Assembly (NCBI RefSeq): GCF_028416635.1
Contig: NZ_CP114013.1
Location: forward strand, 4,092,001-4,156,000
DNA: 64,000 nucleotides
Direction of reading: 5' to 3'
DNA from: Baekduia alba
GTDB lineage: Bacteria > Actinomycetota > Thermoleophilia > Solirubrobacterales > Solirubrobacteraceae
Shown: positions 3,945 through 23,441 of the stretch, piece by piece
Layout: every line of letters begins with the position of its first letter
How positions within the stretch are numbered: the stretch's first letter is position 1
The notes under the pieces: generated by a model
What the model saw: the letters and a program-made list of their open reading frames with translations, nothing else
What the model was told of the DNA's origin: nothing
Database searches by the model: none
Position numbers and translations under genes: made by a program

Positions 3945-3946
3945 AT

Positions 3947-3962
3947 ACAAACGTACGCTTGT
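3947..3962. promoter_or_regulatory. Island operator 1 (bioY / HMG-CoA lyase divergent promoter)
   Basis: ACAAACGTACGCTTGT, a 16-bp near-perfect palindrome preceded on the minus strand by the conserved flank ACGA. It sits between the divergent starts at 3944 (-) and 3981 (+). Seven related sites occur at other promoters of the island, so it is the proposed binding site of the TetR protein encoded at 21366-22001. Confidence 0.75.
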
Positions 3963-3980
3963 TCGTTATCGTTGGCGACC

Positions 3981-4943
3981 GTGCCCACCGACTTCCCAGC
4001 CACCGTGACGATCAACGAGGAAGGCCCGCGCGAGGGCTTCCAGATCGAGCCCGGCCCGATCTCCACGGCCGACAAGGTCGCCTTCGTCGAGGCCCTCGCC
4101 GGCACCGGCGTGCGCAAGATCGACTGCGTCTCGTTCGTCGATCCGCGGCGCGTGCCCGGCATGGCCGACGCCGACGCCGTCGCGACCGGCATCCACCGCG
4201 TGCCCGGCATCCGCTACACCGGCCTGTGGCTCAACGAGCGCGGCTTGGACCGCGCCCTCGCGCTGCCGCTCGACACCGTCGGCGCCATCCGCGTCACCGC
4301 ATCGGAGACGTTCAGCACCAACAACACGGGCAAGGGGATCGTGGCCACCCAGGACGAGCAGCGGCGCTGGCTGGAGCGCTACGTCGCCGCCGGGATCCCG
4401 GTCGAGAGCGGCTACGTGATGACCGCGTTCGGCTGCAACTTCGAAGGTGAGGTGCCGGTCGCCACGGTGATCGACATGGTGGCCTTCATCCTCGAGCTCG
4501 TCGACGGCGCCGGCCTGCCACGGCCCCGCGTCTTCCTCGCCGACACCGTCGGCCACGCGGCGCCCAGCGCCATCGAGCGCGTCGTCGGCGCCGTGCGCGA
4601 CCGCTGGCCCGACCTCCCGCTCGGTCTCCATCTCCACGACACCCGCGGCCTCGGCGTCGCCAACGTGCACGCCGCGCTCGCGCTCGGCGTCGACCACTTC
4701 GATGCCGCCTGCGCGGGCCTGGGCGGATGCCCGTTCGCCGGGCACGCCGGTGCCGCCGGAAACGTCTGCACCGAGGAGGTCGTCTTCCTCTGCGAGGAGC
4801 TCGGCATCGACACGGGCATCGACCTCGAGCGGATGATCGACTGCGCGCGCATGGCCGAGGAGATCGTCGGCCACCGGCTGCCCGGCAAGCTCACCCGCGG
4901 CGGCAGCCTCCGCGCCATCCGCGGCGGCCAGGTTGCGGCATGA
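3981..4943 (+). CDS. Hydroxymethylglutaryl-CoA lyase family enzyme
   Basis: A 320-residue DRE-TIM-family enzyme. Seen: TINEEGPREGFQIEPGP at the N-terminus (the GPRDG block), HLHDTRGLG with metal-binding His residues, and GLGGCPFA with the HMG-CoA-lyase catalytic Cys at about residue 250. Family members split 3-hydroxy-3-methylglutaryl-CoA into acetyl-CoA and acetoacetate, the last step of leucine and acyclic-terpene catabolism. I chose GTG 3981, which leaves about ten residues before the conserved core; TTG 3972 is possible. Its last codon overlaps the start of the FAH gene (ATGA). The island operator lies just upstream. Confidence 0.88.
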   Translation: MPTDFPATVTINEEGPREGFQIEPGPISTADKVAFVEALAGTGVRKIDCVSFVDPRRVPGMADADAVATGIHRVPGIRYTGLWLNERGLDRALALPLDTVGAIRVTASETFSTNNTGKGIVATQDEQRRWLERYVAAGIPVESGYVMTAFGCNFEGEVPVATVIDMVAFILELVDGAGLPRPRVFLADTVGHAAPSAIERVVGAVRDRWPDLPLGLHLHDTRGLGVANVHAALALGVDHFDAACAGLGGCPFAGHAGAAGNVCTEEVVFLCEELGIDTGIDLERMIDCARMAEEIVGHRLPGKLTRGGSLRAIRGGQVAA

Positions 4944-5911
4944 AGCTCGCGACCGCCCGCCGCCCCGGCGACGACGCCGAGCTCTGGGGCGTCGTCGCCG
5001 ACGGCGCCCTGCACGCGCTCGCCGGCGACGGCGCGCGCCGCTGGCCCGACCTCGCCGCCTACCTCGCGGACCCGGACCCCGCGGCGCTCGCCCGCGCGGC
5101 CGACGGCGGTGCGCCGCCGATCGCGCTCGACGACCTCGAGCTGCTCCCGGTCGTCCCGCGTCCCGCCAAGCTGCTCTGCGTGGGGCTGAACTTCGAGGCA
5201 CATCGCCTCGAGACCGGCCGCGACGCCGCCCCGCACCCCACGATCTTCACGCGCTTCGCCGACACGCTCGTCGGCCATCGCCGGCCGCTGCTGCTGCCGC
5301 GGGCGTCGCAGTGCCTGGACTACGAGGGCGAGATCGCCTTGGTCATCGGGCGCCACGCGCGCGCGGTCGAGACTGCCGACGCGCACGACGCCGTAGCGGG
5401 CTACACGCTCTTCCAGGACGCGACGCTGCGCGACTTCCAGAACCATGCTGGCCAGTTCACGCCGGGCAAGAACTTCCCGGCGACGGGCGGCCTGGGGCCG
5501 GTGCTCGTCACGGCCGACGAGGTCGGCGACCCGCGCTCGCTCGAGCTGACCACGACGGTCAACGGCGACGAGCGCCAGCGCGGCCGACTCGACGACCTCA
5601 CCTTCGACATCCCGACGATCGTCGCCTACTGCTCGACCTGGACCGCGCTGGCGCCGGGCGACGTGATCGCGATCGGCACGCCCGGCGGGATCGGCAGCCG
5701 CATGGACCCTCCGCGCTGGCTGACGGCGGGCGATGTCGTCGAGGTCGCGGCGCCGGGCCTCGGCGTGCTGACCAACCCCGTTGCCGCCGAGATCGATCAG
5801 CTCGCGAGAGCGCCCCGACCCACACCCGGCCGCACGCGTGCGGCGGCCCAGGCGAGCGGCCAGTCGTGGACCGGCGTCGCCCCCGAAAGCGGGGCGACGC
5901 CGGCCACGTGA
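4940..5911 (+). CDS. Fumarylacetoacetate hydrolase (FAH) family protein
   Basis: A 323-residue protein with the FAH C-terminal fold: KLLCVGLNFEAH, then LDYEGEIALVIGRHA with the metal-binding Glu pair, GYTLFQDATLRDFQ, TPGKNFPATGG and GDVIAIGTPGGIG. Relatives hydrolyse or decarboxylate 2-oxo acids or hydrate 2-hydroxypentadienoates; the substrate here is unknown. It is translationally coupled to the HMG-CoA-lyase gene. Beyond residue 290 the tail is Pro/Ala/Thr-rich and overlaps, antisense, the last 115 bp of the Old Yellow Enzyme gene, so the true C-terminus may be poorly constrained. Confidence 0.85.
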   Translation: MKLATARRPGDDAELWGVVADGALHALAGDGARRWPDLAAYLADPDPAALARAADGGAPPIALDDLELLPVVPRPAKLLCVGLNFEAHRLETGRDAAPHPTIFTRFADTLVGHRRPLLLPRASQCLDYEGEIALVIGRHARAVETADAHDAVAGYTLFQDATLRDFQNHAGQFTPGKNFPATGGLGPVLVTADEVGDPRSLELTTTVNGDERQRGRLDDLTFDIPTIVAYCSTWTALAPGDVIAIGTPGGIGSRMDPPRWLTAGDVVEVAAPGLGVLTNPVAAEIDQLARAPRPTPGRTRAAAQASGQSWTGVAPESGATPAT

Positions 5912-7044
5912 TCGGCGTGGCCGCCCTCGACCAGGTGATCGAGAAGCGCCGCTGCGTGCAGCGTCGGGTAGTCGATGTAGCCCTCGTCGCCGCCGCCGTA
6001 GAACGTCTCGCGCACGGGCTCGTTGCAAGCCGCTCCGGACGCCAGCCGCGCCGGCAGGTCCGGGTTGGCGAGGAACAGCCGCGCGAAGCCGACCGCGTCG
6101 GCATCGCCGCGGCGGAGGATCGCCGCCGCGCGCTCGCGGTCGAGCTCGCCGGTGGCGATCAGCCCGCCGTCCCAGCGCCGCCGGACCCAGCCCGCGTCGA
6201 TCTGGCCAGTGCGGTCCTCGCCCGTCCCCTGCGCGCCCGAGACACCGGGCTCGACGACGTGGACGTAGGCGAGCTCGCGCCGCGACAGCGCGTCGAGCGC
6301 CGCGCCGAACAGCTCCGCCGGGTCGGGGTCGTGCATGTCCTGGAAGCTGCTCGTCGGCGATAGGCGGACGCCGACTCGCCCCGACCCCCACACCGCGCAG
6401 ACGGCCTCGGCGACCTCGCGCAGGAACCGGGTTCGCGCGACCGGCGTCCCGCCGTAGGCGTCGGTGCGCCGGTTGGAGGAGGCGTGGAGGAACTGGTCGA
6501 TGAGGTAGCCGTTGGCGCCGTGCAGCTCGACGCCGTCGAAGCCGGCGTCGCGCGCGCGGCGGGCGGCGCTCGCGAACTCCTCGACGACCGCGCCGATCTC
6601 GGCGACGCTCAACTCCCGCGGCACGACGTAGGGCACCTGACGGCGCGCGAGGTAGGTGGTGGTGTCGATCGCGACGGCCGACGGCCCAACCGGCGCGGCG
6701 CCGTCGGGCAGCAGCTCGGGCAGGCCGGCGCGGCCGAGGTGCCAGAGCTGGGCGACGATCCGCCCGCCGGCGGCATGCACGGCGTCGATGATCTGCCGCC
6801 ACGCGGCGACCTGCCGCTCGTTCCAGAGGCCGGGCAGGTCCGGGTTGCCCGCGGCCGTCGGCGAGATGCAGACGCCCTCGGAGACGATCAGCCCAGCGCT
6901 CGCCCGCTGGGCGTAATAGAGCGCCGCGGCGGCATGCGGCGTGGCGGCGTCGACCGCGCGGCTGCGGGTCATCGGCGCCATCACGACGCGGTTGGCGAGG
7001 GCCAGGCGCCCGAGCAGCGCCGGTGCCAGGAACGGATCCGTCAC
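5797..7044 (-). CDS. Old Yellow Enzyme family NADH:flavin oxidoreductase
   Basis: A 415-residue FMN enzyme. Seen: N-terminal LANRVVMAPMTRSRA, QLWHLGRAG, and GVELHGANGYLIDQF, giving the substrate-binding pair His175/Asn178 and proton-donor-like Tyr180; NRRTDAYGG follows. OYEs reduce activated C=C bonds of enals, enones or enoates using NAD(P)H. The GTG start is 3 bp after the carboxylase beta stop, so it ends the ligase-MaoC-carboxylase-OYE operon. The last 40 or so residues are an atypical extension overlapping the convergent FAH gene. An alpha,beta-unsaturated intermediate (such as a citral-like aldehyde) is a plausible but unproven substrate. Confidence 0.9.
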   Translation of the reverse strand: MTDPFLAPALLGRLALANRVVMAPMTRSRAVDAATPHAAAALYYAQRASAGLIVSEGVCISPTAAGNPDLPGLWNERQVAAWRQIIDAVHAAGGRIVAQLWHLGRAGLPELLPDGAAPVGPSAVAIDTTTYLARRQVPYVVPRELSVAEIGAVVEEFASAARRARDAGFDGVELHGANGYLIDQFLHASSNRRTDAYGGTPVARTRFLREVAEAVCAVWGSGRVGVRLSPTSSFQDMHDPDPAELFGAALDALSRRELAYVHVVEPGVSGAQGTGEDRTGQIDAGWVRRRWDGGLIATGELDRERAAAILRRGDADAVGFARLFLANPDLPARLASGAACNEPVRETFYGGGDEGYIDYPTLHAAALLDHLVEGGHADHVAGVAPLSGATPVHDWPLAWAAARVRPGVGRGALAS

Positions 7045-7047
7045 GAC

Positions 7048-8625
7048 CTAGACCGGGTAGACGCCGTTGCGGCGCACGTGGGGCTCGGCGGGGCGACGGC
7101 GGTAGAGCGCGAACCGCGTGATCAGCTCGTCGCGCAGCGCGTCGCCCTGGACGACGGCCTCGACCGCGTTCTCGTTGGCGATCTTGAGCACGTCGATGTC
7201 GGCGTCGTACTCGGCGCGCAGCTCGGCCTCGACGCGAGCTCGCTCCTCGGGGTCCTCGATCGCCGCGAGCTTGTTGTAGTGAATGGCGTTCACCGCGGCC
7301 TCGGGACCCATCAGCGCGGGCTTGGCAGTCGGCAGCGCCAGGACCGCATCAGGGCCCATCGGGCTGCCCGACATCGCGAGGTACCCGCCGCCATAGGCCT
7401 TGCGCACCAGCACGGCGATCCGCGGCACCCGGCTCTCGGCGACCGCGAAGAGCATCTTGGCGCCGTGGCGGATGATGCCGTCGCGCTCGACCGCACTGCC
7501 GATCATGTACCCGGCGATGTCCACCAGGAACAGCAAGGGGATGTTGAAGGCGTTGCAGATCCAGACGAAGCGGGCGGCCTTGTCGGAGGAGTCCGAGAAG
7601 AGCACGCCGCCCTTCTGGGTCGGCTGGTTGGCGATGATGCCGACGCTCTCGCCGCCCAGCCGGGCGAAGCCCGCCGTCAGCTCCCGCGCGAACAGCGGCT
7701 TGTAGGCGAAGAAGCTGCCCTCGTCGACCACCGCCTCGATGAGCTCCTCGATGTCGAACGCCTGGGCCTCCCGGACCGGCACGATCTCCTCGACCGGGCG
7801 CGCGTCGGCGCGCGGCGGGCGCGCCGTCACGCGCGGCGGCCGCTGATCCCAGCGACTCGGCAGGTAGGAGAGCCAGACGCGCAGCGCCGCGATCGCCTCC
7901 TCCTCGGTGTCGACCAGCAGGTCGCCGAGCCCGGACACCGTGCAGTGCATCTCGGCGCCGCCCATCTCCTCCAGCGTCACGCGCTCGCCGGTCACCATCT
8001 CGGCCTGGCGTGGCGCACCGAGGTAGGCCGTGGCGTTGCCGCGGACCATCACGGTGTAGTCGCACAGGGCGGGCACGTAGGCCGAGCCCGCGGGCGACGG
8101 GCCGAACAGCGCACACACCTGCGGCACGCGCCCGGAGACCTGGATCTGGTTGTAGAAGATGTTGCCCCACGCGCGACGGCCGGCGTAGCTCTCGAACTGC
8201 TCGTCGATCCGCGCGCCCGCTGCGTCGACGAGGTAGATCAGCGGCGCGCCGATCTCGTCCGCCAGGTCCTGCATGCGCGTGATCTTCTCGAAGGTGCGCT
8301 TGCCCCACGTGCCCGCCTTGACCGTGTAGTCGTTGGCGATGACGCAGACCTCGCGCCCGCCGATCGTGCCGACACAGCACACGACGGCGTCGCCGGGCAG
8401 GCCCTCGGCCGATCGCGCGAGGAGCCCGTCCTCGAACGACGGCTCCTCGTCGAGCAGCAGGGCGAGGCGGTCGCGGACCAGCAGCTTGCCCGCGGCCTGG
8501 TGGCGTTCGCGCTGCTTGGCCGGGCCACCGAGGAGCGCGGTCGCGACGACGTCGGCGACCCGCTCATGGACGGTCCGAACGTCCTCCTGGTCGACGTCGG
8601 CGGGCGGCGGGACGGTCGTGGACAT
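7048..8625 (-). CDS. Biotin-dependent acyl-CoA carboxylase, carboxyltransferase (beta) subunit
   Basis: 525 residues with both crotonase-like carboxyltransferase halves. Seen: AGARIDEQFESYAGRRAWGN and the GPSPAGSAY oxyanion loop in the N half, then KGGVLFSDSSDKAARFV, FLVDIAGYMIGSAVERDG and KAYGGGYLAM in the C half. It transfers CO2 from carboxybiotin to an acyl-CoA. GGAEMHCTVSG resembles the GGADxHCxxSG of methylcrotonyl/geranyl-CoA carboxylases more than the propionyl-CoA type, a hint rather than proof. The start (ATG 8625) overlaps the MaoC stop. Its alpha partner is encoded divergently at 10679-12493. Confidence 0.92.
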   Translation of the reverse strand: MSTTVPPPADVDQEDVRTVHERVADVVATALLGGPAKQRERHQAAGKLLVRDRLALLLDEEPSFEDGLLARSAEGLPGDAVVCCVGTIGGREVCVIANDYTVKAGTWGKRTFEKITRMQDLADEIGAPLIYLVDAAGARIDEQFESYAGRRAWGNIFYNQIQVSGRVPQVCALFGPSPAGSAYVPALCDYTVMVRGNATAYLGAPRQAEMVTGERVTLEEMGGAEMHCTVSGLGDLLVDTEEEAIAALRVWLSYLPSRWDQRPPRVTARPPRADARPVEEIVPVREAQAFDIEELIEAVVDEGSFFAYKPLFARELTAGFARLGGESVGIIANQPTQKGGVLFSDSSDKAARFVWICNAFNIPLLFLVDIAGYMIGSAVERDGIIRHGAKMLFAVAESRVPRIAVLVRKAYGGGYLAMSGSPMGPDAVLALPTAKPALMGPEAAVNAIHYNKLAAIEDPEERARVEAELRAEYDADIDVLKIANENAVEAVVQGDALRDELITRFALYRRRPAEPHVRRNGVYPV

Positions 8626-9065: not shown

Positions 9066-9082
9066 CGAACGGACTTTGACGA

Positions 9083-9098
9083 ACAAGCGTTAGCTTGT
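9083..9098. promoter_or_regulatory. Island operator 2 (MaoC-carboxylase-OYE)
   Basis: ACAAGCGTTAGCTTGT, with two exact 6-bp inverted halves (ACAAGC/GCTTGT). It lies immediately upstream of the MaoC start and touches the stop codon of the acyl-CoA ligase gene, so the downstream three genes probably have their own controlled promoter inside the operon. Confidence 0.75.
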
Positions 9099-10618
9099 CA
9101 AGCGAAGAGCTGACGCTCCGCCAGGTCGCGCTTGAGGACCTTGCCGGTCTGGCTGATCGGCATGTCGTCGAGGCCCACCAGGACCATGCGCTTGGGCACC
9201 TTGTAGCCGGCCAGCTGGGCGCGGCAGTGCTCGCGCAGCGCGTCGATCGTGACGTCGGCGCCGGGCTTGACGGCGACCACCGCGCAGACCTCCTCGTCCC
9301 AGGCGGTGCTGGGCACGCCGAGCACCGCGGCCTCGGCCACGGCGGGATGGGTGTAGAGCACGTGCTCGACCTCCGCGCTGTGCACGTTCTCCCCGCCGGT
9401 CTTGATCATGTCCTTGGTTCGGTCGCGGAAGAACAGGTAGCCCTCCGCGTCGCGCGCCGCGACGTCACCGGTGCGCAGCCAGCCGTCGGACAGGACATCG
9501 GCCGTGGCGTCGGGGTCCTCGAAGTAGCCGAGCATCACGTTGGGGCCCTTGACGTGGATCTCCCCCGGCTCCCCGGCCGGCGACGGCGTCCCGTCGGGCT
9601 CGCGGACCTCGACCGAGCAGAGCAGGAACTCGCGCCCGATCGAGCCGTCGAGCTCGGGCCGGAACATGTCCTCCGGGCGCAGGCGGGTGACGATCGGCCC
9701 CGCCTCGGTGAGGCCGTACTGGTAGTAGAGGGAGACGCCGGGCACCGCGGCCGCGACCGCCCGTTTGTCCTCCATCAGGAACGCCGCGCCGCCGACGTAG
9801 ATCCGCCGCAGGCGCGTGCTCGCGCAGTCCTCGAGCGCCCCGGCGTGCAGCATCCGCCGCACCATGTTGGGCACCAGGAACCCGTTGGTCACGCCGGTGT
9901 CGGCGATGGTGCGCGCCACCTCGCGCTCGTCGAAGGACCGCACCAGCACCGCCGAGGCGCCCAGGACCATGTGCGGCATGAACCAGCACAGCAGCGAGGC
10001 GGAGTGGAACATCGGCGCGATGCACAGCGTCCGGTCGTCGTCGCGCATGTCGGTGTCGACGATCTCGTTGAACGCATTGGCCATCACGTTGGCGTGCGAG
10101 AGCAGCACGCCCTTCGGGAACCCCGTCGTCCCGCCCGTGTAGAGCATCACCGCGGGGGCGCTCGGGTCGACCGCGAGCGCCGGCGGTCCCGCGCCGGCGA
10201 CCAGCAGCGACGCGTAGTCGCTGCGCTCGTCGACCACCGCGAACGTCGGGCCGACGTCGCCGGTGGCCAGCGCCGCGTCGAGGTCGGCGCGATGGTGGCC
10301 GTCGACCAGCACGACCGCCGGCCGCGACTGGTTGAGCGCGAAGACGAGCTCGGGAGTGGCCCAGCGCCAGTTGTACATGACGGCGATCGCGCCGATCGCC
10401 GCGGCGGCCATCACGCACTCCGCCCCGAAGGCGCCGTTCTGGGCCAGGACGCCGACCCGGTCGCCCGCCCCGACGCCCTCGCGACGCAGCCCTTCCGCCA
10501 GCCCCCAGGCACGGGTGGCGAGCTCGCGGTGCGTGCGGCTGGTCGTCTCATCGATGATCGCCACGCGATCGGCATGGCGCCGAGCGTTGCGTTCCAGCAC
10601 CTCTCCAAGCGTGAGCAC
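9098..10618 (-). CDS. Acyl-CoA synthetase (AMP-forming)
   Basis: 506-residue ANL-superfamily ligase. Seen: P-loop-like VMLYTGGTTGFPKGVLLSH (A3), YYQYGLTEAG (A5), GWLRTGDVA (A7), FRDRTKDMIKTGGENVHS (A8 hinge) and QTGKVLKRDL with the catalytic Lys near the C-terminus (A10). It activates a carboxylic acid to its acyl-CoA and is the likely entry step of the pathway. I chose GTG 10618, giving an N-terminus VLTLGEVLERNARRHADRVA typical of the family. It is transcribed away from the carboxylase alpha gene across a shared 60-bp promoter containing an island operator. Confidence 0.92.
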   Translation of the reverse strand: MLTLGEVLERNARRHADRVAIIDETTSRTHRELATRAWGLAEGLRREGVGAGDRVGVLAQNGAFGAECVMAAAAIGAIAVMYNWRWATPELVFALNQSRPAVVLVDGHHRADLDAALATGDVGPTFAVVDERSDYASLLVAGAGPPALAVDPSAPAVMLYTGGTTGFPKGVLLSHANVMANAFNEIVDTDMRDDDRTLCIAPMFHSASLLCWFMPHMVLGASAVLVRSFDEREVARTIADTGVTNGFLVPNMVRRMLHAGALEDCASTRLRRIYVGGAAFLMEDKRAVAAAVPGVSLYYQYGLTEAGPIVTRLRPEDMFRPELDGSIGREFLLCSVEVREPDGTPSPAGEPGEIHVKGPNVMLGYFEDPDATADVLSDGWLRTGDVAARDAEGYLFFRDRTKDMIKTGGENVHSAEVEHVLYTHPAVAEAAVLGVPSTAWDEEVCAVVAVKPGADVTIDALREHCRAQLAGYKVPKRMVLVGLDDMPISQTGKVLKRDLAERQLFA

Positions 10619-10661
10619 AGCCGCATTCTCCCGGGTTCGTGGTTTCGTGTATCGTAAACGA

Positions 10662-10677
10662 ACAAGCACTCGTTCGT
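10662..10677. promoter_or_regulatory. Island operator 3 (acyl-CoA ligase / carboxylase alpha)
   Basis: ACAAGCACTCGTTCGT, a slightly degenerate copy of the island palindrome with the conserved ACGA flank on its left and further inverted symmetry at the edges (AACGA.../...TCGTT). It ends one base before the ATG of the carboxylase alpha gene, leaving no room for a ribosome binding site, and lies 44 bp from the ligase start. Confidence 0.72.
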
Positions 10678-10678
10678 T

Positions 10679-12493: not shown

Positions 12494-13254
12494 GCGACGG
12501 GCTGAGCGTCCTGCACGCCGACGGCGGCGTCGTCGAGCTCGTGCTCGACCGCCCCGACACGCGCAACGCGCTGAGCTACGAGCTCGCCGCGCGCCTCGTC
12601 GAGGAGCTGCGCCGCGCCGCGGAGGACCCCGACACGCGCGTCGTCCTCCTGCGCGGCAACGGCAAGTCGTTCTGCTCCGGCGGAGACCTGCAGGAGTTCC
12701 GCACCAGCTTGGACGACTCGGCGGCGGTCTACCACGACAGCGGCCGCGTCTGGGCCGAGCTGGTCCGCACGCTCGTCACGCTCCCGCTGCCGACGATCGT
12801 CGCCGCCCACGGCCACGCGCTGGCCGGCGGCTGCGCGATCGTCGCCGCCGCCGACGTCGCCCTGCTCGCCGAGGGCACCGCGCTCGGCATGTCGGAGATC
12901 CGGATCGGCCTCTTCCCGGCGATCGTCTACGGCACGCTCGCGCGCGCCGTCGGCCACCGCGCCGCGCGCGAGCTCGCGCTGACCGGCCGGCGCGTCGACG
13001 CCGGCGAGGCGGTCGCGCTCGGCCTCGCCCACCGCCTCGTCGCCGCCGACGACCTGCTCGCGCAGGCCCGCGCGCTGGCGACCGACCTCGCCGGCCTCGG
13101 CCGCGACCCGCTGCGCCTCGGCAAGGAGCTCATGAACGAGGCCGAGCGCCTCGACGTCGACGGCGCGACCCAGCTCGGGCGCGCCATGCGCGGCGCCTTC
13201 ATGACGTCGGCGGACTTCCGCGCCGGCGTCGCGCAGTTCCTCGAGCGCACCTGA
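12490..13254 (+). CDS. Enoyl-CoA hydratase/isomerase family protein
   Basis: 254-residue crotonase-fold protein: LDRPDTRNALS near the N-terminus, GNGKSFCSGGDLQEF (first oxyanion-hole strand) and HALAGGCAIVAAADVALLAE (second), then SEIRIGLFPAI. Crotonases of carboxylase clusters hydrate methylglutaconyl- or isohexenylglutaconyl-CoA, which would fit here. Position 118 or so shows ALAGGC, and an acidic residue occurs in MSEIRIG, where the general-base Glu is expected. It overlaps the carboxylase alpha gene by four bases. Its stop codon directly abuts the convergent permease stop (TGATCA). Confidence 0.88.
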   Translation: MSDGLSVLHADGGVVELVLDRPDTRNALSYELAARLVEELRRAAEDPDTRVVLLRGNGKSFCSGGDLQEFRTSLDDSAAVYHDSGRVWAELVRTLVTLPLPTIVAAHGHALAGGCAIVAAADVALLAEGTALGMSEIRIGLFPAIVYGTLARAVGHRAARELALTGRRVDAGEAVALGLAHRLVAADDLLAQARALATDLAGLGRDPLRLGKELMNEAERLDVDGATQLGRAMRGAFMTSADFRAGVAQFLERT

Positions 13255-16754: not shown

Positions 16755-16770
16755 GTTCACGCAGGGGTCG

Positions 16771-16799
16771 TCCGGGCCCTCCATGACGGAGGGCCCGGA
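16771..16799 (-). terminator. Strong hairpin between aldehyde dehydrogenase and ABC genes
   Basis: A perfect 12-bp inverted repeat, TCCGGGCCCTCC, with a 5-nt ATGAC loop. It follows the aldehyde dehydrogenase stop by 28 bp and precedes the ABC fusion start by 17 bp on the same strand. No T-run follows. It could be a partial terminator or an mRNA-processing/stability element setting enzyme-to-transporter ratios. Confidence 0.7.
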
Positions 16800-16827
16800 A
16801 CGGTGGACGGGACGGCGAGGCGGGGAC

Positions 16828-18318
16828 CTAGATCGCGACCGCGACGGACTTGAGCTCGGTGTAGAGCTCGAGCACCTCGCGGCCGTGCTCACGGCCCCAG
16901 CCGGACTGGCGGAAGCCGCCGAACGGGAGCGCGGGATCGGTGACGGTGTAGGAGTTGACGTACACCGAGCCGGCCCGCAGGCGCCTGACCATGCGGTGGG
17001 CGGTGGCGAGGTCCTTGGTCCAGACGCCGGCCGCCAGGCCGAACTGCGAGTCGTTGGCCAGCGCGACGACCTCGTCGACGTCGTCGAAGCCCTGCGCCAC
17101 GAGCACCGGTCCGAAGATCTCCTCGCGCACGACCTTCATGTCGGGGCGGGTGTTGACCAGGATGGTGGGGTCGACGAAGAAGCCGTCGCCGTCCCCCGCC
17201 CCGTCGCGCACGCCGCCCGCGACGGCCTCCGCGCCCTCGGCCGCGCCGGACTCCAGGAAGCCGCGGACGCGGTCGAGGTGCCGGCGCGAGGTCAGCGGCC
17301 CCATCTCGGTCTCCGGATCGAGACCGGGCCCGACGCGGATCGCCTTCGCGCGGACGGCCAGCCCGTCGATCACCTCGTCGTAGACGTCGTGGTGCACGTA
17401 GAGCCGCGAGCCCGCCACGCAGGACTCGCCCGCGTTGTAGAAGATCGCGTCGGCCGAGGTCGGGATCGCCTGCGAGAGGTCGGCGTCGCCGAAGATGATG
17501 TTGGGGGACTTGCCACCGAGCTCCAGCGACACCTTCTTGAGGTTGCCGGCCGCGGCGCGCACGATCTCGCGCCCGGTCTCGGTCGAGCCGGTGAACGCGA
17601 TCTTGTCGACGTCGGGATGGCCGGCGAGCGCCACGCCGACCACGTGCCCGTAGCCCGTGACGACGTTGACGACGCCGTCCGGGACGCCGGCCTCCTGGGC
17701 CAGCTGCGCGAGCCGCAGCGCGGTCAGCGACGTGTCCTCGGCCGGCTTGAGCACCACGGCGTTGCCGGTCACCAGGGCCGGCGCCAGCTTCCACGCCGCC
17801 ATCAGCATCGGGAAGTTCCACGGGATGATCTGGCCGATGACGCCCAGCGGCTCGCGCACGGTGAAGCTGTGCCACTCGCCGGGCGTGGAGATCGCCACCG
17901 TCTCGCCGGTGATCTTCGTGGCGAGGCCCGCCATGTAGCGGAAGTAGTCGGCGGTCAGCGGCACGTCGGCCGCCCGCGAGGCCGCGATCGGCTTGCCGAC
18001 GTCGAGCGTCTCGAGCAGCGCGAGCTCCTCCCCGTGCTCCTCGACGAGCTCGGCGATGCGCCAGACGATGCGCCCGCGCTCGGACGGCGAGAGGCGCGTC
18101 CACGGGCCGTTCTCGTACGCGTCGCGAGCCGCCGCGACCGCGAGGTCGACGTCGGCCGCGGTGCCCGCGGCGATCTCCATGATCTCCTCGCCGGTCGACG
18201 GGTCGACGACCGGGATCACCCCTCCGCCGGTGGCCTCGACCCAGGCCCCTCCGATGAAGAGCCCGCGCGGCACGGCGGCCAGCGCTGCATCGACGGCGGT
18301 GCTCTCTGTTGCTGACAT
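16828..18318 (-). CDS. NAD(P)-dependent aldehyde dehydrogenase
   Basis: 496-residue ALDH superfamily enzyme. Seen: PWNFPMLMAAWKLAPAL and KPAEDTSLTA (cofactor binding), FTGSTETGR, the general base in LELGGKSPN (Glu266) and the catalytic Cys300 in NAGESCVAGSR; EEIFGPVL and PFGGFRQSGWGRE near the end. It oxidises an aldehyde to an acid, which the acyl-CoA ligase of the island could then activate. It is third in the acyl-CoA dehydrogenase operon, 26 bp after the SnoaL-like gene. Residues around the cofactor site do not let me decide NAD versus NADP. Confidence 0.93.
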   Translation of the reverse strand: MSATESTAVDAALAAVPRGLFIGGAWVEATGGGVIPVVDPSTGEEIMEIAAGTAADVDLAVAAARDAYENGPWTRLSPSERGRIVWRIAELVEEHGEELALLETLDVGKPIAASRAADVPLTADYFRYMAGLATKITGETVAISTPGEWHSFTVREPLGVIGQIIPWNFPMLMAAWKLAPALVTGNAVVLKPAEDTSLTALRLAQLAQEAGVPDGVVNVVTGYGHVVGVALAGHPDVDKIAFTGSTETGREIVRAAAGNLKKVSLELGGKSPNIIFGDADLSQAIPTSADAIFYNAGESCVAGSRLYVHHDVYDEVIDGLAVRAKAIRVGPGLDPETEMGPLTSRRHLDRVRGFLESGAAEGAEAVAGGVRDGAGDGDGFFVDPTILVNTRPDMKVVREEIFGPVLVAQGFDDVDEVVALANDSQFGLAAGVWTKDLATAHRMVRRLRAGSVYVNSYTVTDPALPFGGFRQSGWGREHGREVLELYTELKSVAVAI

Positions 18319-18344
18319 GACGTCCCTTTCCCTTGCTGTCTGTC

Positions 18345-18800
18345 TCAGGCCGCCGCGGCGCCGAACAGGACCTCGGCGTCGCCCGTCGACCAGGCGTTCT
18401 CGATGACCAGATGCGCGATCCGCCAGCCCGGGGTGTCCCGGACGACGTCCACGAAGTAGTGGTTCTGCAGGAGCAGCCGGCGCTCCGGGCGCTCCGGGTC
18501 GACGTGCGTGGCGGCGACCAGCGCGTGGACGCGACCGCGATCGCCGTCTTCGGTCGGCGTGAACCGGCCGTTGGTGACCACGTGCGTCGTGACCAGGTGC
18601 CGGGTCGCCGGGAACGCGATCTCCATGATCACGTCGCGCCCCTCCATCAGCGGGACCTCGGCGCCGAAGCGCGCGGCCGGGTGGCGGAAGTCGAGGACCG
18701 CGTCGGCGGCGAAGGCCGACTCGTAGAGCTCGCGGTCGCCCAGGTCCTGGCCGGCGGCGAACCGCAGGACGGCGTCGAGCGCCGGCTCGAGCTCGGACAT
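18345..18800 (-). CDS. SnoaL/NTF2-like protein
   Basis: 151 residues of the nuclear-transport-factor-2 fold: an N-terminal helix (LDAVLRFAAGQDLGD), YESAFAADAVLDFRHPA, a central MEGRDVIMEIAFPATRHLVTTHVVTN strand-helix region and a C-terminal IAHLVIENAWSTG. Such small cone-shaped proteins serve as isomerases, cyclases, dehydratases or binding subunits. It begins 8 bp after the acyl-CoA dehydrogenase stop. A second SnoaL-like protein lies in the island at 24640-25164; each sits beside an importer gene set, suggesting roles tied to the imported substrate. Confidence 0.75.
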   Translation of the reverse strand: MSELEPALDAVLRFAAGQDLGDRELYESAFAADAVLDFRHPAARFGAEVPLMEGRDVIMEIAFPATRHLVTTHVVTNGRFTPTEDGDRGRVHALVAATHVDPERPERRLLLQNHYFVDVVRDTPGWRIAHLVIENAWSTGDAEVLFGAAAA

Positions 18801-18808
18801 CGATCCGC

Positions 18809-20083
18809 TCACACCCGTGCCGGGCTCGGCACCGACGCCACGCTGGCCGCGCCCGCCAGCGGGTCGTACCCGTCGGCGCGCAGGAAGTCGTGGATCTGGC
18901 GGCGGCGCATGCCCATGTTGCCGCCGTCGTAGAGCGGGAACGCCAGCGCGTCCTGCATCAGCCCGGCCAGCGGCAGGTGCGCCGCGTAGCTCTCGACGCC
19001 GACGACGCGCATCGCGTCGTACACCACCTGCACCGCGGTCTCCGAGCAGAAGACCTTGGCCATGACCGGCAGCTCCTGCCCGGCGCCACCGGTGACGTCG
19101 AAGTAGTGGGCGGCCTTCCAGGTCAGGTACCGCGACGCCTCGATCCGCGTCTTGATGTCGCCGAGCATGTAGCCGACGTTCTGATGGTCGATCAGGGGCG
19201 ACGCGCCCAGGCGCCGCTCGCTGCGCGTGAACTCCAGCGCGCAGTCGAACGCCGCCCGCATCACGCCGACGCTGCCCGTGCCGACCATCGGCGCCGTCCA
19301 CGAGAACGTCCGCGACAGGATCTCGATGCCGTCGCCCGGCTGGCCGATGAGGTTGCCGGCGGGGACGCGCACGTTCTCGAAGTGCACGCGCGGCGACAGC
19401 GCGGCGCGGTGGCCGATGGTCTCGAGCCAGCCGTCGACGCGGATGCCCGGGCGGCGGCCGTCGACCGCGATGACCGCCAGCGACTCCTGCGGCGGCAGAT
19501 CGGCGTCGGTGCGGCAGACGACCGTGAAGAGGTCGGCGCCCAGGCCGTCCCAGCCCGTCCCGTTGGTGGTGAACTGCTTGGACCCGTTGATGACCCACTC
19601 GTCGCCGTCGAGCGTGGCGATCGTCTGGATGCCCGCCGTGGGATCGGGCGAGTCGAAGTTCGCGGCGCCGCCGACCTCCGTGAACGCGAAGGCCGCCAGC
19701 GGTTCGCCGTCGTCGACGAGGAACGGCGCGAGCAGGCGCTCCTGCTGCTCCTGGGTGCCGAACTGGATGATCGGCTGCAGGCCCAGGCCACAGGAGAACA
19801 GCGTGCACGGGACGTTGATGTCGACGCAGGCGACCTCCTCGCCGCCGATGGCCTGGTTCAGCAGCCCGCTGTAGGTGCCGCCGACCGACGTGGGGAGCAG
19901 CCCCTTGAGGAACCCGGCGCGGACCATCTCGCGGTAGAACGGCCGCAGCGCGTAGAAGCGCTCGTCGGCTTCCGCCAGCCCGGCCGTCGCGGCCTTGACC
20001 TCGGTCAACACCGTCTGGGCGAACTCGCGTGCACCGGCGCGGAGCTCCTCCTGCTCGGTACTCGGGGTGAAGTCGATCGGCAT
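18809..20083 (-). CDS. Acyl-CoA dehydrogenase family protein
   Basis: 424 residues. Seen: N-terminal helical region (STEQEELRAGAREFAQTVL), FAFTEVGGAANFDSPD and DEWVINGSKQFTTNGTGWDG in the beta domain, FENVRVPAGNLIGQPGDG, and an all-alpha C-terminal domain with MRVVGVESYAAHLPLAGLMQDA. It is an FAD enzyme that introduces an alpha,beta double bond in an acyl-CoA. First gene of a five-gene minus-strand operon (ACAD, SnoaL-like, ALDH, ABC fusion, permease), driven from a promoter carrying two island operators shared with the divergent cupin-SDR pair. Confidence 0.9.
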   Translation of the reverse strand: MPIDFTPSTEQEELRAGAREFAQTVLTEVKAATAGLAEADERFYALRPFYREMVRAGFLKGLLPTSVGGTYSGLLNQAIGGEEVACVDINVPCTLFSCGLGLQPIIQFGTQEQQERLLAPFLVDDGEPLAAFAFTEVGGAANFDSPDPTAGIQTIATLDGDEWVINGSKQFTTNGTGWDGLGADLFTVVCRTDADLPPQESLAVIAVDGRRPGIRVDGWLETIGHRAALSPRVHFENVRVPAGNLIGQPGDGIEILSRTFSWTAPMVGTGSVGVMRAAFDCALEFTRSERRLGASPLIDHQNVGYMLGDIKTRIEASRYLTWKAAHYFDVTGGAGQELPVMAKVFCSETAVQVVYDAMRVVGVESYAAHLPLAGLMQDALAFPLYDGGNMGMRRRQIHDFLRADGYDPLAGAASVASVPSPARV

Positions 20084-20102
20084 GCCTCTCCTCTCCAGGC
20101 TG

Positions 20103-20118
20103 AAAAACGTACGCTTGT
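20103..20118. promoter_or_regulatory. Island operator 4 (acyl-CoA dehydrogenase side)
   Basis: AAAAACGTACGCTTGT; on the minus strand it reads ACGAACAAGCGTACGTTTTT with its flank. It is 20 bp upstream of the acyl-CoA dehydrogenase start and is one of a pair in this divergent promoter. Confidence 0.75.
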
Positions 20119-20169
20119 TCGTTTGGACACTAGACGGATCCCAAAGGGAAAGTCAAGCGCCTTTTACGA

Positions 20170-20185
20170 ACAAGCGTCCGTTTGC
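20170..20185. promoter_or_regulatory. Island operator 5 (cupin-SDR side)
   Basis: ACAAGCGTCCGTTTGC preceded by ACGA, 38 bp upstream of the cupin start. With operator 4 it brackets a short AT-richer segment, so each divergent promoter has its own site, and looping or cooperative repression is possible. Confidence 0.75.
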
Positions 20186-20222
20186 TAATCTCACGCCGTC
20201 CATCGACCGAACTGGAGAGGCC

Positions 20223-20660
20223 ATGACCGCCTTGTCGGAAGCGCCAATCGTCCTAACGCGCGGGAGCGACGTCCTGACGCAGACCGCTCAGACCGAGGGC
20301 GCGCGGCGGCTGCTCGGCGTCGGGGCCGCGACCGGCGCCAGCCGGATCTGGATGGGCCGCGTCGAGAACGCGCCCGGCGAGTGGTCGGCGCCGCACCACC
20401 ACGGCGAGGCCGAGACGGGAGGCTTCGTGCTGTCGGGCCGGGCGCGCATCTACTTCGGCGCGGACTACTCCGAGTTCATCGACATGGGGGCGGGCGACTT
20501 CTGCTTCGTCCCGCCGTTCGTCCCGCACATCGAGGGCAACATGAGCGACACCGAGCCGCTCGTCTACATCACGGCGCGCACCCCCGACAACATCGTGGTC
20601 AACCTGCCCGGCCCTGGCCGCGACGTCCACGCCGACACGCTGCGCGCGGGACGGAGCTGA
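20223..20660 (+). CDS. Cupin-domain protein
   Basis: 145 residues of a single cupin barrel: SAPHHHGEAETGGFVLSGRARI (metal-binding His cluster plus Glu) and GDFCFVPPFVPHIEGN (second motif with His). Small cupins bind a metal and can be dioxygenases, isomerases, lyases or ligand sensors. The start is well supported by GGAGAGG 2 bp upstream of CCATG. Followed after 2 bp by the SDR gene, so the pair is an operon under the island operator. The active metal site looks intact, so I expect an enzyme rather than only a binder. Confidence 0.85.
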   Translation: MTALSEAPIVLTRGSDVLTQTAQTEGARRLLGVGAATGASRIWMGRVENAPGEWSAPHHHGEAETGGFVLSGRARIYFGADYSEFIDMGAGDFCFVPPFVPHIEGNMSDTEPLVYITARTPDNIVVNLPGPGRDVHADTLRAGRS

Positions 20661-20662
20661 CC

Positions 20663-21319
20663 ATGGCCGGAGCGATCGTCATCGGCGCCGGCCCCGGCAT
20701 CGGCGCGTCCGTCGCGCGGCGCTTCGCCCGCGAGGGCCTGCCCGTCGCGCTGCTGGCCCGTTCCGCCGCGACGCTCGAGGCGAGCGCGCGCACCGTCGTC
20801 GACGCGGGCGGCACGGCGCTCAGCCTCGTCGCCGACAGCACCGACGACGAGGGGCTGCGCGCCGCGCTGGCCCAGGCCGTGGAGCGCCACGGCGTCCCCG
20901 AGGTCCTCGTCTACAACGCCGCGCAGATCCGCTCCGACCAGCCCGGCGACCTGACGGTCGACGAACACCGCGACGCCTGGGCGGTCAACGTCGCCGGCGC
21001 GGTCACGGCCGTCGCCGCGGTCGCGCCCGCGATGGCGGACGCCGGCGCGGGGACGGTGCTCCTCACCGGCGGGATGCCGGAGCCGCTGTTCGACCTGGTC
21101 AGCCTCTCGCTCGGCAAGGCCGGCATCCGCGCGCTCGCGCAGCTGCTCGACGCCCACTACGGCGAGCGCGGCCTGCACGTCGCGACCGTGACGGTCTGCG
21201 GCCCCGTCGAGCCCGGCGGCCCGTTCGACCCCGACGAGATCGCCGACGCGTACTGGCGGCTGCATCGCCAGCCGCGGGAGGCGTGGGAGCGCGAGCTGGT
21301 CTACCGCGGTCGCGCCTGA
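20663..21319 (+). CDS. SDR-family protein lacking the catalytic tyrosine
   Basis: 218 residues with a Rossmann fold: VIGAGPGIGASVARRFA (cofactor loop), VYNAAQI (the usual NNAG position) and a C-terminal PVEPGGPFDP. In place of the usual Tyr-x-x-x-Lys it reads SLSLGKAGIRAL: the Lys is kept but the position four residues before it is Leu. The upstream serine is in TGGMPEP, not the usual SS. It may therefore use different chemistry, or be a binding or regulatory member; a subgroup of SDRs with SLGK motifs exists. Tightly coupled to the cupin gene. Confidence 0.8.
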   Translation: MAGAIVIGAGPGIGASVARRFAREGLPVALLARSAATLEASARTVVDAGGTALSLVADSTDDEGLRAALAQAVERHGVPEVLVYNAAQIRSDQPGDLTVDEHRDAWAVNVAGAVTAVAAVAPAMADAGAGTVLLTGGMPEPLFDLVSLSLGKAGIRALAQLLDAHYGERGLHVATVTVCGPVEPGGPFDPDEIADAYWRLHRQPREAWERELVYRGRA

Positions 21320-21329
21320 GGGGCCTGAG

Positions 21330-21357
21330 GGCGGCGCCGGCGCGCGCCGGTGCCGCC
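21330..21357. terminator. Bidirectional hairpin between SDR and TetR genes
   Basis: A GC-only inverted repeat of about 13 bp per arm with one mismatch (GGCGGCGCCGGCG / CGCCGGTGCCGCC) and a 2-nt loop, lying in the 46-bp gap between the convergent SDR and TetR stop codons. No T-tract is present. Confidence 0.6.
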
Positions 21358-21365
21358 GTCGCCTC

Positions 21366-22001
21366 CTAGCCGCCCTCGCTGACCAGCGGCGCGAGCATCT
21401 GCCCGAGCTCGACCTGGCGCTGGTCGTTGGTCAGCGACCGCAGCACGAAGTCGGAGTAGACGGTGGCGATCTCCGCGAGCGACATGCGGCCGCCCGGCTG
21501 GTACCAGTCGGCGACCTGTGTGCCTATCGCGACGATGCCGTAGGTCGCCAGCCGCACGTCGCTGACGTGGAAGACGCCGGCGTCGACGCCGTCGCTGACG
21601 ATCTTCCGCAGCAGCTGCTCGTACTCGTCGCGCTGCTCGACCACCGCGGCGCGCTTGACCGGCGGAAGCGCGCGCAGCTCCGAGTTGCCGATGAAGACCT
21701 CCTGCGACCGCACGGCGTGGAACGCGACGTGGAGCTCCACCGCGGTGCGCAGGCGGTCGACGGGCTCGGTCTGCGTGGCCAGCGCGGCGTTCACCTCGTC
21801 GAGGAGGTCGCGCATGATCCCGCTCATGATCGAGTACAGCAGCTCCTCCTTGGAGCTGATGTGGTTGTACAGGCTGCCGACCTTGATGCCGACGTCCGAG
21901 GCGAGGTCGCGCAGCGACGTGGCCTCGTAGCCGTGCTGGCAGAACAGCCGGATCGCGGACCCGCGGATGGCTTCTGCGGTGATGGCTCCGTTGCGCGGCA
22001 A
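21366..22001 (-). CDS. TetR/AcrR family regulator, proposed repressor of the island
   Basis: 211 residues. The N-terminal HTH is typical: AIRLFCQHGYEATSLRDLASDVGIKVGSLYNHISSKEELL (about 17-56). The C-terminal ligand domain has VELHVAFHAVRSQEVFIGNSELRAL and resembles acyl-CoA-responsive TetR proteins such as the KstR2 type, though I cannot assign a ligand. TTG 22001 is supported by AGGGAG about 8 bp upstream. An island operator lies 22 bp before the start, so it is probably autoregulated. It is the only regulator between 3.3 and 28.7 kb and the natural candidate for all eight operators. Confidence 0.88.
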   Translation of the reverse strand: MPRNGAITAEAIRGSAIRLFCQHGYEATSLRDLASDVGIKVGSLYNHISSKEELLYSIMSGIMRDLLDEVNAALATQTEPVDRLRTAVELHVAFHAVRSQEVFIGNSELRALPPVKRAAVVEQRDEYEQLLRKIVSDGVDAGVFHVSDVRLATYGIVAIGTQVADWYQPGGRMSLAEIATVYSDFVLRSLTNDQRQVELGQMLAPLVSEGG

Positions 22002-22022
22002 TGGGTTAGCTCCCTGGGACGA

Positions 22023-22038
22023 ACAAGCGCTCGTTTTC
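22023..22038. promoter_or_regulatory. Island operator 6 (TetR autoregulation)
   Basis: ACAAGCGCTCGTTTTC with the conserved GACGA flank, located 22 bp upstream of the TetR start and reading in the direction of the consensus on the plus strand. Confidence 0.72.
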
Positions 22039-22106
22039 AGCTTAGCAGTAAGCGCGACGGCGCGGAGCGGCCGCCCAGCGGCCGCCCCTCGGCTTCGCGA
22101 TGCGAC

Positions 22107-23264
22107 CTAGAACAGTTTCTCCAACTGCGCGGACGTCAGGCTCGACGACAGGTCGGCGTCGGGCGGCAGGCCCTTGTCGCACCGCGGGTCCTTGCCGCCG
22201 CGCGTGTCCATGAACGGCTGCACCTGGTAGCCGGCGGGCTCGTCGTCGCTGACGCCGTTCTTGATCGCGACCGCCTTGCGCAGCGCGATGCGGGCGAGCG
22301 TCGGCGTCTCGTCCATCGACAGCAGCGGGAACCGCTTGGGCTCAGCGGCCCAGACGCAGCCGAGCTCGTTGGCGCTGGCCACGGTCGCGATCGGCACCAT
22401 CGGCTTGCCGGCGTTGCGATAGGCGCGCACGGCACCCGTCATGGCCGTCCCGTAGGAGGAGAAGTACCCGTCGATCTTGGGGTACTTGCCCAGCGCTCCG
22501 GCCACCGCCTGCTGGACCGACGCCGCGTCGAACTTGGTCTCCAGGAACGTCGACTGCAGCAGCTTGAGGCCCGGCGTCGCCGCGAGCTCCTCCTTGAGGA
22601 CACCGAGCCACTTGGTGTCCTGCGGGTTGCCGGGCGTGCCGCCCACGAAGAGCAGGTTGCCCTTGCCCCCGAGCGCCGATGCCATCCAGGCGACCCACTG
22701 CTTGATCAGCGTCTTGTCGTCGACCGAGATGAAGTCCGCGTAGTCCTTGCCGATCGTCCCGCCCGGGTCGGCGTTGTACGGCACGACCGCGACGCCCTTC
22801 TTGTAGGCCCTGCGCAGCGCCGACAGCGTCGCGCTGCCGAAGTCGTCGAAGCCGATGATGACGTCGACCCCCTGGGCCACGAGCGCGTCGACCCCCGAGA
22901 TGTACTTCTGCGGATCACCGTTGGCGTCGACGTACAGCGGCTTCTCGATGTTCGAGCACTTGGCCGCCTCGTCCTCGTACTCGGCGCGGACGATCTTGCG
23001 CCACCCGTTGCCGCCAAAGCCGTCGACCAGCGCGACCTTCAGCGGCTTGGTGCCGCAGAACCGGGTGATGTCCGGGCGCCCGTCGGGCCCCGCCGAGGCG
23101 GCGATCGCGGCCTCGGACTTCTGCGTCGCGGCCGCCGCGTCGGCGCTCGCGCCGTCGCCCGTCTTGCTCGTCTTGCTCGTCGCGCCGCACGCGGCGATGG
23201 AGACCGCGGCAAGCGCGCTCGCTCCCGTCATCGCGGCCAGCCTGACCTGTCGGTGCACCCTCAT
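22107..23264 (-). CDS. Ribose-type ABC substrate-binding lipoprotein 1
   Basis: 385 residues. A lipoprotein signal peptide with ALAAVSIAACG (lipobox Cys near residue 26) is followed by a Ser/Thr/Ala spacer and a Peripla_BP_4-like fold: FCGTKPLKVALVDGFGG, ALVAQGVDVIIGFDDFGS, GNLLFVGGTPGN and GYFSSYGTAMTGAVRAY. ATG 23264 has GGAGGA immediately upstream. It captures the substrate for an importer, presumably the fused transporter encoded at 13255-16754. It is a clear paralogue of the protein at 23509-24609, from which it diverges across a 244-bp promoter with two operators. Confidence 0.88.
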   Translation of the reverse strand: MRVHRQVRLAAMTGASALAAVSIAACGATSKTSKTGDGASADAAAATQKSEAAIAASAGPDGRPDITRFCGTKPLKVALVDGFGGNGWRKIVRAEYEDEAAKCSNIEKPLYVDANGDPQKYISGVDALVAQGVDVIIGFDDFGSATLSALRRAYKKGVAVVPYNADPGGTIGKDYADFISVDDKTLIKQWVAWMASALGGKGNLLFVGGTPGNPQDTKWLGVLKEELAATPGLKLLQSTFLETKFDAASVQQAVAGALGKYPKIDGYFSSYGTAMTGAVRAYRNAGKPMVPIATVASANELGCVWAAEPKRFPLLSMDETPTLARIALRKAVAIKNGVSDDEPAGYQVQPFMDTRGGKDPRCDKGLPPDADLSSSLTSAQLEKLF

Positions 23265-23331
23265 GACTCCTCCACGCCCTCTCTCCAGGACCCGCGACCG
23301 GACCATCCGGACCAAGACGGACCGTAAACAA

Positions 23332-23347
23332 GCAAGCGTTCGTTTTC
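23332..23347. promoter_or_regulatory. Island operator 7 (binding protein 1)
   Basis: GCAAGCGTTCGTTTTC, the most degenerate of the eight copies, 68 bp upstream of the binding-protein 1 start and beside a short AT-rich tract that probably contains the promoter. Confidence 0.6.
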
Positions 23348-23425
23348 AACTCCAAATTCATATTAGGCGATTTTGCAGGTCTTTCCGTGATCCACAGCGC
23401 CGTGTCGTTACGTCGAAGTTGACGA

Positions 23426-23441
23426 ACAAGCGTAAGTTTGC
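23426..23441. promoter_or_regulatory. Island operator 8 (binding protein 2)
   Basis: ACAAGCGTAAGTTTGC with the conserved GACGA flank, 68 bp upstream of the binding-protein 2 start. Its distance mirrors that of operator 7 from the divergent gene. Confidence 0.72.

Follow-up and report, generated by a model that had tools for sequence, protein, structure and literature searches.

Genes of the island

The window analyzed here, a stretch of 64,000 nucleotides of Baekduia alba, carries a 25-kb island with genes for a biotin-dependent carboxylase route, two importers, biotin uptake, and a regulator. The genes are listed below by position in the window.

3330..3932, minus strand: BioY, biotin importer S-component (Pfam); start ATG 3932 or 3944
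4005..4943, plus strand: HMG-CoA lyase-like (Pfam/NCBIfam); 62% identity to the Pacificitalea gene; start uncertain
4940..5911, plus strand: fumarylacetoacetate-hydrolase-family (FAH) protein; start uncertain
5797..7044, minus strand: Old yellow enzyme (OYE)/NADH:flavin oxidoreductase
7048..8625, minus strand: acyl-CoA carboxyltransferase (beta subunit); 73% identity to the Rhodococcus ruber plasmid gene
8625..9065, minus strand: MaoC-like hydratase
9098..10618, minus strand: AMP-binding acyl-CoA ligase (from translation); 53% identity to the R. ruber AMP-binding protein; start uncertain
10679..12493, plus strand: biotin carboxylase and biotin carrier (alpha subunit)
12490..13254, plus strand: enoyl-CoA hydratase family
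13255..16784, minus strand: Importer 1, permease and ATPase-permease fusion (CUT2-like)
16828..18318, minus strand: aldehyde dehydrogenase
18345..18800, minus strand: SnoaL-like protein
18809..20083, minus strand: acyl-CoA dehydrogenase-fold flavoprotein, closest to nitroalkane oxidase
20223..21319, plus strand: cupin and SDR
21366..22001, minus strand: TetR-family regulator, TetR_N and TetR_C_24 (Pfam); predicted to bind the operators
22107..23264, minus strand: substrate-binding protein 1 (Peripla_BP_4)
23509..28705, plus strand: Importer 2 unit, with substrate-binding protein 2, SnoaL-like protein, ATPase-permease fusion, and permease

The first-pass annotation had proposed one repressor for about twenty genes, including two importers and biotin uptake. 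This estimate agrees with our assignments, in which the predicted regulon comprises 22 genes in 10 units with two CUT2-like ABC importers, BioY, and the TetR gene itself.

Predicted operator: sequence, placement, and frequency

Eight sites in the window fit a 20-bp quasi-palindrome, ACGAACAAGCGNNCGTTTGT.

Operator 1, 3943..3966, minus strand: between BioY (minus) and the HMG-CoA lyase-like gene (plus); exact consensus
Operator 2, 9079..9102, plus strand: 18 bp upstream of the MaoC start (GTG 9065), unit MaoC-carboxyltransferase-OYE (minus)
Operator 3, 10658..10681, plus strand: between acyl-CoA ligase (minus) and biotin carboxylase (plus)
Operator 4, 20099..20122, minus strand: divergent promoter, side of the acyl-CoA dehydrogenase/nitroalkane oxidase-like gene
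Operator 5, 20166..20189, plus strand: divergent promoter, cupin-SDR side
Operator 6, 22019..22042, plus strand: 22 bp upstream of the TetR start; autoregulation predicted
Operator 7, 23324..23347, plus strand: upstream of substrate-binding protein 1 (minus); weakest
Operator 8, 23422..23445, plus strand: upstream of substrate-binding protein 2 (plus); a TTGACG hexamer precedes

All eight sites named in the annotation are present, but the core it gave them, ACAAGCG-N2-CGTTTGT, is exact only at 3947 (minus strand). The other seven carry one to three mismatches, chiefly in the right half, which is degenerate across the island operators. The left half, ACGAACAAGC, is present in seven of the eight, and the better half lies on the minus strand at 3947 and 20103. 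The site placed at 23332 exists, but the core has its fewest mismatches (two) at 23328, ACAAGCAAGCGTTCGT, while the matrix favors a register 4 bp farther on (29.5 vs 25.7). This weakest site lacks the ACGA that the annotation gave as usually preceding the core, and its register is ambiguous.

The sites had been described as lying at gene starts, and all eight are indeed intergenic, in an island where intergenic DNA makes up only 3.3% (96.7% coding; p ~1e-12 under random placement). At 9083, the site shares 1 base with the stop codon of the upstream gene. Genome scans were run as pattern searches with mismatches; the matrix has 24 columns and was built from the window sites alone. Within the window, 16 matches at ≤3 mismatches were found against 3.6 expected, with a maximum of 12 across 100 shuffles. 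Genome-wide, the 16-mer core at ≤3 mismatches occurred 233 times and its reversed control 228 times (both strands counted). The loose core alone is thus uninformative, a count that favors reading the matches as chance or as shared low-complexity similarity without function. The full 20-mer, however, gave 9 matches at ≤3 mismatches in the 5.86-Mb genome and 0 for the reversed control. At ≤2 mismatches, the genome scan proposed in the annotation restricted it to the island (7/7, control 0). Two three-mismatch matches fall outside; the known off-island candidates are limited to 1269967, which scores 21 bits and lies close to a gene start, and 758978, at 17 bits. The 20-mer scan already refutes chance, and the intergenic placement and the conservation in other genomes add to this, so that such an explanation retains practically no probability. 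With the corrections given above, the observation made in the annotation is confirmed.

Instead of an operator, the repeat could in part be a promoter element (−35 region, e.g., TTGACGAACAAG) read by a dedicated sigma factor. At the cupin gene and at substrate-binding protein 2, the site follows TTTACG or TTGACG, and a −10 element may lie about 17–18 bp on. However, the repeat has dyad character and does not keep one orientation toward the genes (the strong half is directed away from the gene at 9083 and 22023), and a scan of 19000–24000 gave no canonical sigma-70 promoter. The motif also correlates with the TetR recognition helix, as described below. A sigma factor element is therefore very unlikely.

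The TetR regulator and related clusters

The sole TetR gene found in the island is preceded by Operator 6, as the annotation had it. A site at its own promoter and seven others together give the layout of a local autoregulated TetR regulon. Both its helix-turn-helix domain (TetR_N PF00440, 45.6 bits, cut-off 24) and its C-terminal domain (PF17932, 117.7 bits, cut-off 26.4) exceed the Pfam cut-offs, placing the protein in the TetR/AcrR family. Model matches point to the FadR family and, as a distant relative, to FasR, which is named an activator; the KstR2 and 3vpr structures are sequence relatives. Scores for the FadR/KstR-type and other NCBIfam equivalogs stay far under their cut-offs: SACE_7040 (58.1/250 bits), FadR of Bacillus (57/200), FasR (44.9/330), and KstR (24.7/280). 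Among TetR homologues, a recognition helix of SLYNH or SLYNY mostly accompanies the motif, and the motif is absent from those with YHW, YKH, YLY, or YQY. One SLYNH homologue (L021) has no site nearby. Homologues at 33–40% identity from the same genus, family, and order (L018–L024) stand in other contexts with no good adjoining site. A contig search with the TetR protein returned two short partial matches only, both without the motif.

A plasmid cluster of R. ruber encodes a TetR 49% identical to that of the island. At ≥13 bits, the window matrix placed 10/10 sites there in intergenic DNA and none in coding sequence; the cluster is 22% intergenic, and shuffles average <1 match per locus. These sites precede genes for TetR, biotin carboxylase, acyl-CoA dehydrogenase (two), aldehyde dehydrogenase, a substrate-binding protein, MaoC, and an alkene reductase. 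Pacificitalea sites occupy the divergent promoters of acyl-CoA dehydrogenase/OYE and of hydratase/carboxyltransferase. In its two stretches, 4/8 matches at 13 bits fall inside genes, and no good site lies beside the TetR gene itself. Two Methylobacterium plasmids have a site at the TetR/isovaleryl-CoA dehydrogenase promoter, and two other genomes contain further matrix sites. Because the cross-species sites were picked with the window matrix, their consensus is biased toward it. BioY also occurs in related clusters of two other lineages. Cupin matches on Rhodococcus and Arthrobacter plasmids were set aside, as they belong to anthranilate-type clusters different from the island cluster. A literature search on the island gene set and on R. 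ruber MSA14 found nothing relevant. Judged by sequence comparison, the operator, TetR type, and gene set are conserved together across phyla.

This conservation bears on whether the sites serve a different, unlinked regulator, such as a global fatty-acid or branched-chain one, with the local TetR carrying one incidentally. The genome holds 16 other TetR-family matches to the island TetR, and its binding to the operator is a prediction. Unlike the expectation for a global regulator, however, no 20-mer match at ≤2 mismatches lies off the island, and plasmids from other phyla carry the motif together with this type of TetR and this set of genes. We consider an unlinked regulator improbable. A separate leucine-type cluster of the same genome (3.825–3.833 Mb) has its own TetR; checked as a second target, it lacks the island operator (best 12.6 bits). 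This paralogous cluster has the palindrome GAATGATCGTTC.

Proposed mechanism and known systems

The palindrome is highly likely to serve as operator for the island TetR, whose dimer would repress the ten units, its own gene included. One local repressor very probably switches the pathway, its importers, and the biotin importer together, because the sites occur only in island promoters and the same site, repressor, and enzyme kinds recur on plasmids of distant bacteria. The one-repressor reading is thereby supported, with the 20-mer confined to the island, a site at the regulator's own promoter, and a window matrix predictive in other phyla; binding and repression are inferred from these patterns.

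The TetR dimer would sit on eight sites overlapping or adjoining the promoters of ten transcription units and would repress all of them, activation being the alternative. Substrate uptake and activation would yield an intermediate of the pathway, probably an acyl-CoA thioester, which may bind the TetR C-terminal domain and release the DNA. Release would turn on the importers and the enzymes of substrate activation. It would also turn on the biotin-dependent carboxylase, the accompanying hydratase and HMG-CoA lyase-like enzyme, and BioY, which would supply the carboxylase cofactor. The substrate may be a branched acid, possibly of isoprenoid type, or a compound from which such an acid is formed. 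More tentatively, and less likely than not, the island could represent a catabolic regulon that has spread horizontally and occurs on one actinobacterial megaplasmid, on plasmids of alphaproteobacteria, and in scattered genomes of the phylum to which the window belongs. Its substrate-sensing TetR would command biotin import only while the pathway runs, and the substrate would be novel for such regulators, possibly entering via the nitroalkane-oxidase-like flavoenzyme.

These results provide a concrete, testable operator for an uncharacterized TetR clade conserved across phyla. The operator marks out the genes of a degradation pathway, narrowing the search for its substrate. Biotin import would be tied to biotin-dependent catabolism by a pathway regulator, not by a biotin sensor (BirA, BioR, BioQ).

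AtuR/RdmA, the acyclic terpene utilization repressor of Pseudomonas, binds AGCAAGCGCTTGG / CCAAGCGCTTGCT.(PMC9973270) As in the island, a local TetR stands beside the genes of a biotin-dependent acyl-CoA carboxylase pathway that includes a ligase, an acyl-CoA dehydrogenase, and a hydratase, and the half-site CAAGCG is common to both operators.(PMC9973270) However, the AtuR operator itself was not matched in the window: it has no 2-bp gap, a different flank, and two sites in one intergenic region, whereas the window has a gapped 20-bp dyad at eight sites. The island also adds importers, BioY, cupin, and OYE. At the geranyl-pocket position (MCC Phe191), as located by alignment to liu-type MCC rather than by superposition, the window, R. 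ruber, and Pacificitalea carboxyltransferases have Trp, not Gly. With the AtuR operator absent and this presumed pocket residue bulky, a geranyl-CoA/acyclic terpene pathway was not adopted.

The available part of the BkaR report describes the mycobacterial branched-chain keto-acid repressor, an autoregulated TetR protein that represses an accA1/accD1 carboxylase operon and has a palindromic operator, GTTA-N-T-N4-A-N-TAAC.(PMC3920632) Autoregulation, a carboxylase operon as target, and a palindromic operator are shared with the island, but that operator was rejected because its sequence is unrelated to the window sites. BkaR also has fewer sites, and that part of the report notes no BioY or importer. 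LiuQ, reported in Proteobacteria only from betaproteobacteria (PMC5343134), resembles the island in placing a TetR over leucine/isovalerate genes for isovaleryl-CoA dehydrogenase, carboxylase, and HMG-CoA lyase. The liu-like cluster on Methylobacterium plasmids has a TetR of 44–47% identity whose recognition helix is identical to that of the island TetR and whose operator is related. Importers, OYE, cupin, FAH, and BioY set the island apart from both, as does the lack of a standard isovaleryl-CoA dehydrogenase. With KstR2, FadR (Bacillus), and 3vpr-type TetR_C_24 regulators, the island TetR shares the general TetR layout. The system is of a known type, that of AtuR, BkaR, LiuQ, and KstR2, of which the island would be a new, apparently mobile member, and the coupling to biotin import is its unusual part.

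Candidate operators and their frequency

The first-pass annotation had proposed one TetR repressor acting through eight palindromes on about twenty genes of the island, a carboxylase gene cluster of about 25 kb. All eight positions were confirmed in the sequence, with a nearly invariant left half and a variable right half. The site placed at 23332 can be read in two registers: 23328 gives fewer core mismatches, and the scoring matrix built from the eight sites slightly favors 4 bp further on.

The eight candidate operators, each in the orientation of its stronger half
3947, minus: ACGAACAAGCGTACGTTTGT
9083: ACGAACAAGCGTTAGCTTGT
10662: ACGAACAAGCACTCGTTCGT
20103, minus: ACGAACAAGCGTACGTTTTT
20170: ACGAACAAGCGTCCGTTTGC
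22023: ACGAACAAGCGCTCGTTTTC
23328: GTAAACAAGCAAGCGTTCGT
23426: ACGAACAAGCGTAAGTTTGC

The 16-mer core (ACAAGCG-N2-CGTTTGT) with up to 3 mismatches matched 16 times in the window against 3.6 expected. Across the whole 5.86-Mb genome it was not more common than its reversed control, so the core alone is too weak for the proposed excess over chance. That excess holds for the ACGA-extended 20-mer: up to 3 mismatches gave nine genome matches, all seven with up to 2 mismatches lay in the island, and the reversed 20-mer had zero matches genome-wide. All eight sites fall within noncoding sequence, which makes up 3.3% of the island.

An off-island site on the same contig (G000:C1:1269967-1269986, L037; 3 mismatches, 21 bits) lies about 35 bp upstream of an ORF whose product resembles a small-molecule transporter, and is a possible extra target. 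A second (G000:C1:758978-758997, L036; 3 mismatches, 17 bits), probably within a reading frame, is near another acyl-CoA carboxylase paralogue (759303-760457).

Predicted regulon of the island

Gene content was assigned from Pfam, NCBIfam, translation, and start-codon inspection. The predicted regulon comprises ten units and 22 genes.

Predicted units
1: BioY
2: HMG-CoA lyase-like, FAH-family
3: MaoC, carboxyltransferase, OYE
4: acyl-CoA ligase, 9098-10618, minus (open frame extends into antisense of the neighboring gene)
5: biotin carboxylase/carrier, enoyl-CoA hydratase
6: acyl-CoA dehydrogenase-fold flavoprotein, SnoaL, aldehyde dehydrogenase, importer 1
7: cupin, SDR
8: TetR
9: substrate-binding protein 1
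10: substrate-binding protein 2, SnoaL, importer 2

Predicted operators lie about 15 bp from the BioY ATG (3932) and 18 bp from the MaoC GTG (9065), with spacings of 1 bp at the biotin carboxylase ATG and 22 bp at the TetR start. Positions so near the starts fit blocking of RNA polymerase, and we infer leaderless transcripts.

Among solved structures, the closest to the "acyl-CoA dehydrogenase" at 18809-20083 (minus) is nitroalkane oxidase (E 1e-79). This protein keeps the DGGNxGxRRRQ stretch, which carries the catalytic Asp/Arg and is absent from the dehydrogenases of related clusters. Elsewhere in the window are a 2586-aa, probably surface, protein with eleven DUF11 repeats (43189-50949, minus) and, outside the island, a Radical SAM/SPASM protein (36200-37264, plus).

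Related clusters and recognition helix

The matrix, trained on the window sites alone, was run on clusters located by searching with either the TetR or the carboxyltransferase. The cluster on the R. ruber MSA14 megaplasmid (TetR 49%, carboxyltransferase 73% identical to the window) encodes ligase, carboxylase, MaoC, OYE, cupin, aldehyde dehydrogenase, FAH, SnoaL-type, and CUT2-type importer genes. All 10 of its 10 matches at 13 bits or more were intergenic, with 22% of the sequence intergenic (p about 3e-7); shuffled sequences averaged less than 1 match per locus at 13 bits. These sites precede TetR, SDR, biotin carboxylase, acyl-CoA dehydrogenase (two), aldehyde dehydrogenase, substrate-binding protein, MaoC, and alkene reductase. 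A Pacificitalea plasmid (TetR 41%, HMG-CoA lyase 62%, carboxyltransferase 60%) carries the same genes together with BioY and importers of the TRAP type; sites occur at two divergent promoters, along with four in-gene matches at the 13-bit threshold. Paired sites lie between TetR and isovaleryl-CoA dehydrogenase in two Methylobacterium plasmids, and G084 and G323, two other genomes of the window's phylum, have sites beside MaoC, hydratase, and carboxylase. The pooled consensus of thirty sites is ACRAACRANCGTNCGTTYGT, to be read with caution since all were selected with the window matrix. Matches at the carboxyltransferase threshold occurred in 3 of 396 phylum genomes, the window's own included, and on plasmids besides; the predicted system's distribution is wide but patchy.

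The recognition-helix region of the window TetR is VGIKVGSLYNHI, and motif-bearing homologues have VG[IVL]Q[VA][GA]SLYN[HY]. No good site was found near the genes of homologues with AIYHW, TLYHW, SLYKH, ALYLY, or ALYQY. The rule is imperfect, because the SLYNH homologue L021 also had no nearby site.

The same genome holds a leucine-type cluster at 3.825-3.831 Mb (G000:C1:3825128-3833200, L044/L045) with carboxyltransferase, biotin carboxylase, HMG-CoA lyase, acyl-CoA dehydrogenase, and its own TetR (32% identity to the window TetR). The island motif is absent from this cluster (best score 12.6 bits), and the interval between its TetR and acyl-CoA dehydrogenase holds a distinct double palindrome that resembles an operator, CTACTGAATGATCGTTCGAA/TTCGAATGACCATTCGATAG. 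On this sequence evidence, the island TetR looks insulated from the leucine-type cluster.

Biotin import, candidate ligand, and known systems

BioY is present in the island, in the Pacificitalea cluster, and in G323, where it immediately adjoins the carboxylase. The window's genome also encodes bioB and another BioY, which shares 76% identity with the island copy and lies some 2 kb outside the leucine-type cluster. Island BioY is thus not the sole biotin supply and looks like an additional, pathway-linked importer.

Bacillus FadR and KstR2, both of which respond to CoA thioesters, are among the relatives identified by model match or by structure-sequence match. By this analogy, our best guess is that the inducer would be an acyl-CoA. 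The ligase, carboxylase, hydratase, and HMG-CoA lyase suggest a branched acid as the pathway substrate. Geranyl versus methylcrotonyl specificity is set by one residue, Phe191 in MCC and Gly162 in GCC (PMC4673880). Aligned to a liu-type carboxyltransferase, the window protein has Trp at the position inferred to correspond. This would favor a small substrate, although overall the protein is nearer to propionyl-type subunits.

Local autoregulated TetR control of carboxylase pathways is already known for AtuR (PMC9973270), BkaR (PMC3920632), and LiuQ (PMC5343134). The island is predicted to share this arrangement with them, with its own putative operator, a wide but patchy distribution, and an unusual predicted tie to biotin import.
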